Source of the DNA: a virus
Length of the DNA: 27,808 nt
Strand: one strand, 5' to 3'
IMG/VR virus record: IMGVR_UViG_3300032213_000043
Coordinates: 1 to 27,808 of that record
The position numbers were made by a program, and so were the translations under genes. Below, piece by piece: positions 7,253-9,889 of this stretch (position 1 is the first letter of the stretch; every line of letters starts with the position of its first letter). The notes beneath the pieces are model-generated. The model saw only the letters and a program-made list of their open reading frames with translations, was not told the DNA's origin and made no database searches.

Positions 7253-7729
7253 TCAGCGGAATATTGAAACCGAAACATTTTCTGAATCTACATTACTAAA
7301 AGCACTATCAATCGTTTCAACTTTAAACGCAGATGTTGTCATAGTTGTAGCTACTGCATTTCTTCCCGGAATTGAGTTTCCGTTTCCCCCAGTGCCACGA
7401 ATAGCGTTTGTTGAATACGCATAATTTGCATCAGGCAGCGCAGTTGTAAAGTTTACCGTGTAGCTACCCGTGCCGTTGTCCGTAACACTCGACACATTTC
7501 CACTTGCATTAATCGCCACAGTGCCAGTGCCATTGAAGTTCACCCATGCGCGGCAAGCGTAAACAGGCGCAGAGCCACTGGCGTTAAACTGAGTCAGGGT
7601 GGATTCAGCAGTGGCTACAGTGCCGGTACTGTCAGGCAGCGTCAGCGTCCTGTTTGTGTTTGTGATGGGTGCTAACAGGGTGACCGTACCAGTTCCCGTC
7701 GCACCCCCTTGTACAGCTAAAAGTGACAT
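7253..7729 (-). CDS. short tail-fibre-like protein
   Basis: A 158-residue beta-rich protein. N-terminal residues 12-39 carry the GTG..T...P.TNTNR..TLPD..G module shared with the gene at 6226-6843 (15 of 28 positions identical). The second half begins YACRAWVNFNGTGTVAINAS and continues with GSYTVNFTTALPDANYAYS and a final SVSIFR; I recall this domain at the tips of many phage fibres. GAAGGAG precedes the start closely, inside a 19-codon frame that separates it from the HNH gene. Likely a virion fibre or fibre tip; the host receptor is unknown. Confidence 0.75.
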   Translation of the reverse strand: MSLLAVQGGATGTGTVTLLAPITNTNRTLTLPDSTGTVATAESTLTQFNASGSAPVYACRAWVNFNGTGTVAINASGNVSSVTDNGTGSYTVNFTTALPDANYAYSTNAIRGTGGNGNSIPGRNAVATTMTTSAFKVETIDSAFSNVDSENVSVSIFR

Positions 7730-7788
7730 TATGCTGCTCCTTCAAGTGCGGTGATGCGGGTTGTCAGGGCTGTGTTATTGAGTCGCAT
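7729..7788 (-). other. 19-codon frame with a fibre-like coiled-coil end
   Basis: Minus-strand ATG at 7786-7788 to TAA at 7729-7731 encodes MRLNNTALTTRITALEGAA. The ALTTRITALEG heptads resemble the C-terminal trimeric coiled-coil ends of fibre proteins. It overlaps the 3' end of the HNH gene by 14 bases and supplies the GAAGGAG ribosome site of the next fibre gene. It could be a leader frame for coupling, or the last codons of a fibre gene cut off when the HNH gene arrived. The evidence does not distinguish the two. Confidence 0.35.
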
Positions 7789-8314
7789 ATTTATTTGCCT
7801 TTCGCTTGTTTTCATCGGCCTTAATGACGCGCAAATTGCTTGGGACATGAAGACCAGATACCTTCTTGCCGTACAGTGGAATGATGTGGTCTACATCCCA
7901 TCGGTCTAAGTTTTCTCTGTTGTACATGGCAGCTACCTGATACTTGCATTGTATTTGCAACCAATCTGATTCTGTTAACCAGCTTGGCGTTCTGTTGGCT
8001 TTGCCAGCCCTGTACCGAACACATTTGTTTTGCAAGTAAGCAGCATTTTCTTTGTTGTATTTTTCACGCCACGCTTTAACTTTTTCTGGATTTACCTTTT
8101 CCCATGCTTTGCTAGCAGCGCGGCATTTTTCTGGATTTGCTTGACGATAAGCAGCAGATGTTGCACGGGCATGCTCAAGGTTTGCATCACGCCATCTCTT
8201 GTTGCTGGCGCTGTGGCAAGGTTTGCAATAGTAATGATGCCCACCCTTGCGCTTTGCACTTTTGCAGAACGCCGTTAACGGCTTTATTTCTTTGCAGCAA
8301 GCACAGGTCTTCAT
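7775..8314 (-). CDS. HNH endonuclease, probable free-standing homing enzyme
   Basis: A 179-residue protein with an N-terminal zinc-ribbon-like part (CACC at 4-7 and YCKPCH at 29-34, so Cys4, Cys7, Cys30, Cys33), a basic middle with repeated NPEK units (about 59-90: ANPEK, then VNPEKVKAWREKYNKEN), and a C-terminal HNH domain: DVDHIIPLYG (140-149, His143), GLHVPSNL (154-161, His156 and Asn160) and ADENKRK (166-172, Asn169). Such enzymes nick or cut double-stranded DNA and commonly spread between phages by homing. Its ATG overlaps the stop of the S74 fibre gene as ATGA and its end overlaps a 19-codon frame ahead of the next fibre gene, so it sits between fibre genes without breaking them visibly. 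Part of it is AT-rich (20 G/C in 8041-8100). The domain call is firm; mobility is inferred. Confidence 0.9.
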   Translation of the reverse strand: MKTCACCKEIKPLTAFCKSAKRKGGHHYYCKPCHSASNKRWRDANLEHARATSAAYRQANPEKCRAASKAWEKVNPEKVKAWREKYNKENAAYLQNKCVRYRAGKANRTPSWLTESDWLQIQCKYQVAAMYNRENLDRWDVDHIIPLYGKKVSGLHVPSNLRVIKADENKRKANKYATQ

Positions 8315-9219
8315 GGAAGTCTGGCCTTTAAGTCAGCAATCTCAACAGCTTGAGCTTTGACAATGGTATGCAATTCTTGCAAAGCCGCCGTAAGAGTTGC
8401 GCTCAAGAAGCTGGTGTCGATGCCTTGGTACTGTGGGTTGCCGTCAGCGTCTACAGCGTCTTTTTCACCAACTACGCACTCAGGAACAACGGCTTGCAGT
8501 TCGTGCGCTATGAAGCCTTGAGTCGCCTCGCCAGTAGCTTTCCATTTGTACGATACTGGTTTAAGTGCGGCTACTGTTGCCAAAGCACCTGTCATCGGCG
8601 CAATGTCTTCTTTCAATCGGTAGTCTGAAGATGTAACGTATTGTGTTGAGCCAGAATTTACTGTTATGTTGCCGACACCTGTGCCGCTTACATTTTGAAA
8701 TTCTGCGGCATAGTTACCATTTCCAGAAACTCGCGTAACCATATATCCGTCTTGCCTAATTACAATGGCAGAATCGTTTGGAACGCCACCGCTGTAGGAT
8801 GTAGCCCCAATTAGCAAGTTACCGCTGGAGTCGATACGGGCGCGTTCTGTGTCGCTGGTGGTAAAAATCATTGAGGCGGCTTCAAGAACTCGCAAGCGAA
8901 GTGAGGTATCGTCAGCAGCAACACCAATTAAACAGCCATCAGTAGACGCTGTTCCTGTTGTTGAGTTTGTAAATTGAATGTAGTTATTTACGCCAGCACC
9001 ACGATATGTTGTTACAGCATTGTTAATCGTAGTAGCACCAATCCCCATATTCCCTGCGCTGTCAAACCTTGCAACCTCCGCACCACCTTCAGCAAAAGCA
9101 ATGGTGTCAGCAGCGGGGAAGAAGATGCCTGTGTTGGTGTCAGTGCCTCTGAGCGCGGGGGCGGCGGCTGTGCCGTCCACATCAGAAAGGCCGTCAGAGC
9201 CGCTTAGAATTAAACTCAT
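8311..9219 (-). CDS. fibre or spike protein with C-terminal S74 intramolecular chaperone
   Basis: A 302-residue protein. The start at 9217-9219 is chosen because CTAAGGAAAC precedes it on the minus strand. The N-terminal part (LSGSDGLSDVDGTAAAPALRG, then TGIFFPAADTIAFAEGG and repeated RFDSAGNMGIGATT/RIDSSGNLLIGATS) is the usual phage appendage stretch, two copies of the R.DS.GN..IGAT repeat at about 51-63 and 128-141. The C-terminal domain is peptidase S74, which trimerises the fibre and then cuts itself off: SSDYRLKEDI (197-206, catalytic Ser198 and Lys203), GFIAHELQAVVPECV (235-249), YQGIDTSFLSATLTAALQEL (264-283) and a coiled-coil end. Cleavage is expected just before Ser198. Role: host-contact fibre; self-processing is inferred from intact residues. 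Confidence 0.88.
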   Translation of the reverse strand: MSLILSGSDGLSDVDGTAAAPALRGTDTNTGIFFPAADTIAFAEGGAEVARFDSAGNMGIGATTINNAVTTYRGAGVNNYIQFTNSTTGTASTDGCLIGVAADDTSLRLRVLEAASMIFTTSDTERARIDSSGNLLIGATSYSGGVPNDSAIVIRQDGYMVTRVSGNGNYAAEFQNVSGTGVGNITVNSGSTQYVTSSDYRLKEDIAPMTGALATVAALKPVSYKWKATGEATQGFIAHELQAVVPECVVGEKDAVDADGNPQYQGIDTSFLSATLTAALQELHTIVKAQAVEIADLKARLP

Positions 9220-9229
9220 AATTGTTTCC

Positions 9230-9889
9230 TTAGAGAACAACCCAGCGTGCGCCGGTTGGGACTGTTACTACAACGCTGCTGTTTATGCTTATCGGGCCGG
9301 TTGACATGGCGTTTTTGTTTGTCGTGATTGTATAGCTTGTGGTGACGGTCTGGCCGTTTTCCACAAACACCTCGTCTGGCCCGCCGCCAGTGGCCCCGCC
9401 GCCAAGCGCGCCCCAGGCGCTGGCGCCGTAGCCTTCAAACTTTGCCAGCGAGGTGTTGTAACGCACCATGCCGGTGACCGGCGTAGGGCGCTGGCCTGTC
9501 GTGCCCACGTTCAACTTAGAGGCCGAGGTGGCCGTCAGCGAGATGGTGGTAAAGAAGCCGCTGTTGGGCGTGGTCGAACCGATAACTGGCGGCACGGCAA
9601 ACGAGGCGGTTGTCAGCGTCACGCCGATGTTGTCGGTCGTAAAGATCGGCACGTCCAGGGCGTCGAACACGGCGTACTTGTAGTTGACTGTAGTGTCCAG
9701 CCAGATGTTCGCCATGCCCCGCGAGTCCAAGATAATCGGGTTGGTGTTGGTCGTAACGCCCGCAGCGTCCACGTAAGTGACGACAGGCGTTGTAGTGCCC
9801 GCAGCGTAGGTGTACACCTTCCCGCCCACCAGCGGCTGGCCGTTGGCGTCGAAGAACTGTTGCTTGGGGTTGGGGGAAAGCAAGGCCAT
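9230..9889 (-). CDS. tail fibre/appendage protein
   Basis: A 219-residue protein. The N-terminal 90 residues (SPNPKQQFFDANGQPLVGGK, VYTYAAGTTTPVVTYVDAAG and NPIILDSRGMANIWLD) form a domain common at the base of phage fibres, presumably the virion attachment part. A middle SKLNVGTTGQRPTPVTGMVRYNTSL segment matches a frequent fibre unit. The last 39 residues, ending VVVTVPTGARWVVL, are shared with the long fibre gene at 15257-17017 (23 of 39 identical without gaps). The gene follows the large ejection-type protein directly, and its stop is part of the TAAGGAAAC ribosome site of the S74 gene. Likely a structural fibre component. Confidence 0.8.
   Translation of the reverse strand: MALLSPNPKQQFFDANGQPLVGGKVYTYAAGTTTPVVTYVDAAGVTTNTNPIILDSRGMANIWLDTTVNYKYAVFDALDVPIFTTDNIGVTLTTASFAVPPVIGSTTPNSGFFTTISLTATSASKLNVGTTGQRPTPVTGMVRYNTSLAKFEGYGASAWGALGGGATGGGPDEVFVENGQTVTTSYTITTNKNAMSTGPISINSSVVVTVPTGARWVVL

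Follow-up and report, generated by a model that had tools for sequence, protein, structure and literature searches.

An HNH endonuclease gene probably inserted, with a substitute gene end, in the 3' end of a phage S74 fibre gene

The window, by which is meant the whole 27.8 kb virus record analysed, encodes podovirus-type portal, head, DNA-ejection and terminase genes along with a cluster of fibre genes on the minus strand. In this cluster a fibre gene of the S74 (intramolecular-chaperone) type is followed by a gene for an HNH endonuclease, a frame of 19 codons and a fibre gene of 158 codons, their stops and starts overlapping (Table 1). The start of the HNH gene lies on the S74 stop as ATGA. 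The end of the HNH gene has 14 nt in common with the short frame, which in turn overlaps the following fibre gene's start as TAATG and carries a GGAG just upstream of that start. The initial annotation of this DNA had described both overlaps of the HNH gene and had placed the ribosome site of the next fibre gene within the short frame, and the positions agree with it on each of these points. Relatives of the 158-codon fibre gene have been identified directly behind an S74 gene (L085) or behind an S74 gene and a GIY-YIG gene (L006/L342).

Table 1. Positions of the genes and sequence features in the fibre cluster of the window
Feature	Position	Strand	Evidence or remark
S74 (intramolecular-chaperone type) fibre gene, host of the insertion	8311..9240	-	Pfam Peptidase_S74, E 7.3e-14; PHROG tail fibre families; listed start TTG, internal ATG shortly 3'
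S74 stop, TGA	8313-8311	-	
S74 stretch identical to HNH-free L002, 327 nt	8525..8851	-	zero mismatches, offsets -448 to -122
Probable co-converted or recoded stretch, 121 nt	8404..8524	-	19 mismatches vs L002, 18 at third codon positions (counted from listed offsets)
Substitute S74 tail, 30 codons, SATLTAALQELHTIVKAQAVEIADLKARLP	8314..8403	-	tail type also in L168/L082 and L169; 39/90 nt differ from L002
HNH endonuclease gene, 179 aa	7775..8314	-	phrog_1035, E 1.6e-22; relatives at equivalent place in L082, L169
HNH start, ATG	8314-8312	-	
HNH stop, TAA	7777-7775	-	
19-codon frame, MRLNNTALTTRITALEGAA	7729..7788	-	displaced tail plus junction with HNH end
Displaced original S74 tail	7732..7774	-	43 nt identical to S74 tail of HNH-free L344
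Next fibre gene, 158 aa	7253..7729	-	phrog_11355 tail fibre, E 5e-18

The HNH protein has pairs of Cys residues in its N-terminal region and the motif DHIIPL..GLHVPSNL..I...EN..K in its C-terminal region, and the PHROG family that it matches is described as 'endonuclease VII'. The match to the Pfam HNH family, at 14 bits, is below the cut-off of 21.4. Residues V141 D142 H143, N160 and N169 are invariant in six relatives of the window nuclease and, together with the phrog_1035 match, point to a nuclease domain with intact catalytic residues. The relatives in L082 and L169, which occupy the same position behind an S74 gene, share 82% and 63% identity with it. Comparison of the predicted structure (pTM 0.43) with the PDB by Foldseek gave no match at E <= 0.001, a sequence search of the PDB gave only a weak match to Cas9, and no relative was found in a scan of genome contigs with query A4. 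Genes of the window type are also present in isolates, by annotation. The motif RWRDANPEK, situated mid-way in the window's HNH protein, makes up a small protein of near-identical repeats encoded elsewhere (L083:3941-4200).

Scans of IMG/VR for S74 genes of the window's type yielded 207 distinct sites, of which 26 were classed as having a nuclease gene directly behind and 181 as free of one; one set of these genes was drawn by the pattern TAALQ and is biased towards altered tails, and another by a pattern upstream of the tail. The codons behind the HNH gene, ALTTRITALEGAA, are identical at 43 of 43 nt to the S74 tail of the nuclease-free L344, and four further contigs match them at 38 to 41 of the 43 nt. 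All five matching stretches are the in-frame ends of S74 genes, and the short frame is therefore the end of an S74 gene, separated from that gene by the HNH gene. Its score of 85.7 bits compares with a median of 20.3 and a 95% point of 26.6 for 158 control junctions, and the remnant amounts to only 13-14 codons of the tail. The 19-codon frame had earlier been taken for a leftover end of a fibre gene, and the match to L344 upholds this. The proposal that a homing-type nuclease had entered the fibre cluster is likewise supported. Its further part, that the nuclease had replaced the body of a fibre gene, is not sustained, the body being the S74 gene directly upstream, the frame of which is complete.

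The tail now carried by the S74 gene is of a different kind. Alignment with the HNH-free L002 shows complete identity over 327 nt, followed by 19 mismatches in 121 nt and then by 39 in the 90 nt of the tail, leaving 51 tail positions shared with L002. On the 5' side of the identical block the two S74 genes are unrelated, as is usual for modular fibre genes. As judged from this alignment, a recombination boundary lies near position 8524, inside the S74 gene, and its place would fit co-conversion of the flanks along with the HNH gene. The tail type QELH...AQA.EIA.LKA has been found at all three S74 sites with a window-type HNH gene and at none of the 181 nuclease-free sites; L296, a contig that stops before the next gene, has the QELH tail type too. 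Between the window and L168 the tail (63/87 nt identical) and the region upstream of it (171/240, ungapped) are about equally diverged. The end of the S74 gene is widely conserved, GIDTSFLVATLTAAIQE being present in most of the 207 sites, while the far tail varies. Of 18 sites analysed, only 6 show a drop in identity from the upstream region to the tail that is larger than in 95% of the 178 control pairs, since S74 tails vary widely anyway, and recoding as a general statistical claim is weak.

Two more window-type HNH genes have been identified with the same layout at S74 ends. In L168/L082, which carries the HNH gene 82% identical to that of the window, the HNH gene is followed by ITALTARVAALESN and then by the next gene, and the tail and next gene together share 88% identity over 136 nt with the nuclease-free L037. 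The site in L169 retains only the last three native tail codons, ESK; the displaced match of 13 nt scores 26.3 bits, which is within the range of the controls and too short to count alone.

Nucleases of a second family, which combine NUMOD4 and HNH_3 domains and are unrelated to the window's, occupy 15 distinct S74 sites. Here the frame of the nuclease runs into the displaced tail, and the nuclease itself therefore ends in S74 residues (for example LKARLDAANL, KASHP or ITALESA). At 13 of the 15 sites the 3' end of the nuclease gene scores at least 36 bits against S74 tails, L201 and L207 reaching only 22.3 bits; among the 158 control junctions this score was attained at three, all of them fibre genes with S74-like ends. 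When loci were instead sampled by the NUMOD4 nuclease, 17 of 41 proved to be close relatives (at least 68% identity), and each of the 17, inspected by eye, lies on the S74 stop as ATGA and has an S74-like tail at its end. The gene in front is not an S74 gene at the remaining 24 loci. In one of these (L392:2463-3045) the NUMOD4-HNH gene lies behind an unrelated gene and both end in ENSLK; the duplication comprises nine codons, with 25 of 33 nt equal to the gene in front. Four contigs (L186, L187, L190 and L194) encode S74 genes with the TAALQEAH.LIK tail that is typical of NUMOD4 carriers and with no nuclease behind, the overlap AAATGAC now starting the next gene. They possibly represent loss of the nuclease with the substitute tail kept.

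At the other nuclease insertions behind S74 genes a displaced tail was found in none of eight, all scoring 22.3 bits or less. These include the GIY-YIG genes at the junction of S74 and next gene (L342/L006, L176 and L247/L021), a further HNH group (L199, L235, L236 and L320) and L064, and they are regarded as plain insertions at the junction. In L176 (4099-4690) and L342, the contig of L006, the GIY-YIG gene is situated exactly at the S74 stop and the start of the next gene, and the nuclease opens with residues resembling those of the fibre protein that follows, MSQV in the case of L176. In 120 loci, nuclease genes lie behind 9 of 121 S74 ends as against 13 elsewhere, among about 1347 genes (odds ratio 7.4, p 5e-5), an enrichment that is biased upwards because the seeds of the search came from nucleases flanking S74 genes. 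The contigs are metagenome assemblies, in which chimeras could arise more readily at the conserved S74 end, a concern that does not apply to the isolates of Kayvirus described below.

Ten isolates with distant NUMOD4 nucleases, among 60 listed matches, were analysed for a duplicated tail, and none was seen in nine of them. The tenth (L409), a Staphylococcus Kayvirus (OR640348), was chosen as both proteins end in KLEEK, a likeness with a shuffle p of 0.295; its duplication was later supported by the DNA of empty alleles. In the region 1457-2105 of L409 an HNH-type nuclease gene separates an exonuclease gene from the gene that follows, and the KLEEK end is accompanied by TAATG in the exonuclease and the nuclease alike. 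The nuclease-free phage OP323059 is nearly identical on both flanks. The copy behind the nuclease, AAACTGGAGGAAAAATAATGAAAT, is equal to the native end in all four nuclease-free phages examined (L418-L421), and the exonuclease's own end has two synonymous changes in its last codons. The duplicated end holds GGAGG and TAATG, so that the nuclease and the next gene both keep a ribosome site.

Taken together, these observations are in our judgement likely to reflect a free-standing HNH homing endonuclease gene that inserted in the 3' end of the S74 fibre gene and carried with it a recoded end of that gene. The nuclease would have entered bringing the substitute tail, and the S74 frame thereby stays complete. 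As read from the overlapping frames, the insert supplies the host gene with a substitute coiled-coil tail and with a stop that overlaps the start of the nuclease, and the native tail behind the nuclease still provides the ribosome site and the stop-start overlap of the next gene. Occupied alleles are paired with empty ones in the window (L344/L085), in L168 (L037) and in OR640348 (OP323059).

Other histories could leave a tail behind a nuclease. The one put forward in the initial annotation is that a second S74 fibre gene stood at this place and that the HNH gene replaced its body, leaving the last codons. Tandem S74 genes do occur among relatives (L289, with two S74 sites, and L029), which makes a neighbouring second tail conceivable in principle, but in the HNH-free relatives a single S74 gene immediately precedes the same kind of next gene (L037 compared with L168, and L085 with regard to the next gene of the window), and the tail in front of the HNH gene, of the LKARLP type as against the displaced ITALTTRITALEGAA, is confined to sites with a window-type HNH gene. 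The Kayvirus exonuclease, moreover, has empty alleles with a single copy, and we regard a lost second gene as quite improbable. An intron or intein has even less in its favour: the displaced tail would be a natural 3' exon, to which splicing of a self-splicing element containing the nuclease would join the S74 gene, but the S74 gene ends in a stop of its own that overlaps the first codon of the nuclease. As the frame of the nuclease reaches the displaced tail, hardly any non-coding DNA is left for an intron core. An Rfam search of seven sources gave no match, and no known intron family is therefore indicated. A group I intron-encoded homing endonuclease was rejected on the same two grounds, the lack of an Rfam match and of almost any non-coding sequence, and splicing of any such kind is considered extremely improbable.

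Swapping of modules deserves separate discussion owing to the contig L422. This contig encodes a stand-alone S74-tail frame, MNKIITALTTRITALEAA, at 1120-1188 between a fibre gene with no S74 match and a GIY-YIG gene; the frame ends in ITALTTRITALEAA, and the region carries the next fibre gene of the window plus the gene after it. A leftover tail, then, does not require an HNH gene. We read L422 as a probable case of the same tail being left as the S74 body was exchanged by some other means, and as a sign that the tail may be retained for the ribosome site of the next gene, whatever removes the body. A short frame standing alone in HNH-free relatives had been named at the outset as an observation that would count against the initial proposal; it has been seen, in part, in this one contig. 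A pattern scan of all collected loci for short S74-tail frames outside S74 genes and with a gene behind recovered only L168 and L422, L094 being set aside as a different sequence, and the scan is incomplete because the window's own frame was missed by the pattern. L422 and the general mosaic pattern of S74 genes would fit a scheme in which tails are kept for the ribosome site, bodies are exchanged by ordinary recombination and the nuclease is a passenger. Against it, two unrelated nuclease families occupy the same junction with a displaced tail, which is seen in none of the eight other insertions and in almost none of the 158 controls, and in Kayvirus the occupied allele departs from the empty one only by the nuclease and a few codons. 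Exchange of modules with a passenger nuclease is accordingly held to be unlikely.

Insertion by a free-standing homing endonuclease would proceed by cutting or nicking, in a co-infecting phage, of HNH-free S74 genes within their tail region. The nuclease gene plus flanking S74 DNA would then be copied from the carrier during repair, and the altered tail sequence may make the carrier resistant to its own nuclease. The wide conservation of the S74 end, as against the variable far tail, makes this region a plausible target. S74 domains are chaperones that are cleaved off after folding of the fibre, and a changed coiled-coil tail may therefore cost little. The initial annotation further supposed that the enzyme would spread a host-range locus to co-infecting phages; what appears to be moving, as far as these data show, is the end of the gene and not the receptor-binding part.

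The nearest counterpart is found among the mORFs (mobile ORFs) of fungal mitochondria, which replace the C-termini of genes, namely atp6, atp9, cox2 and nad3 of Glomus and, as cited therein, atp6 of Allomyces (PMC3630166). For atp6, as one example, the native C-terminus shares 91% nucleotide identity with insert-free relatives and the carried one 64% (PMC3630166). According to the parts of that report drawn on here, an endonuclease gene is placed at the 3' end of the host gene, with a C-terminus of its own brought in phase and the native one left behind, as in the window (PMC3630166). The displaced tail of the window is likewise closer to insert-free relatives (43/43 nt with L344) than is the present tail (51/90 with L002). 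The two differ in residing in phages and not in mitochondria, and in encoding an HNH nuclease in place of the LAGLIDADG or GIY-YIG nucleases described in those parts. The native atp6 tail is reported there as not expressed, whereas the phage tail gives the next gene its ribosome site, and in the NUMOD4 form, unlike the mORFs as described there, the displaced tail is the nuclease's own C-terminus (PMC3630166). The HNH insertion works in the manner of a mORF and is not classed as one, as HNH-type nucleases in phage contigs are concerned. The likeness to the mitochondrial device suggests that gene-end replacement probably arose more than once.

Among phage systems, the seg and mob genes of T4 are also free-standing and intron-less, situated between structural genes, associated with nuclease-free alleles and accompanied by exchange of flanks; in the excerpted account they are placed in intergenic regions, and a substitute gene end is not mentioned in it (PMC2988022). 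The genes mobE in nrdA of Aeh1 and mobA in gene 60 of T4 lie, like the present one, within a host reading frame, but in the same excerpt the host gene becomes two polypeptides, whereas the S74 frame is made whole by the insert (PMC2988022). The gene-splitting type of mobE in nrdA has been rejected for the window, where S74 is complete to its new stop and the remnant is 13-14 codons. Phage nuclease genes have also been described next to structural genes where genetic exchange takes place, and the systems in the sections concerned are brackets on the scale of islands, introns and inteins, with gene-end replacement not described in those sections (PMC10448857). No report of gene-end replacement in phages was found in searches of a library of open-access papers. 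We file the layout as a variant form of free-standing homing endonuclease insertion, distinct from the intergenic and the gene-splitting phage types above.

Free-standing homing endonucleases must land harmlessly for the host phage and are usually described between genes. The present layout is a way to enter the end of a gene, and an operon of overlapping genes, at no cost to the genes on either side. The changed tail offers a testable explanation for the immunity of the carrier, and the layout links the mobility of the nuclease to the swapping of ends between fibre genes. The Kayvirus pair consists of cultured phages, one of them bearing a nearly identical empty allele, and is open to experiment; Staphylococcus carnosus TM300 is recorded as a host for phages related to these. 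We give about an even chance to a more general scheme, in which unrelated nuclease families target the last codons of genes, a synonymous copy restores the protein and hides the carrier, the native end serves as a ribosome site or as the C-terminus of the nuclease, and fibre C-termini are exchanged. If this is true, the ends of genes, above all the conserved S74 end, would be standing drive sites in packed phage operons.
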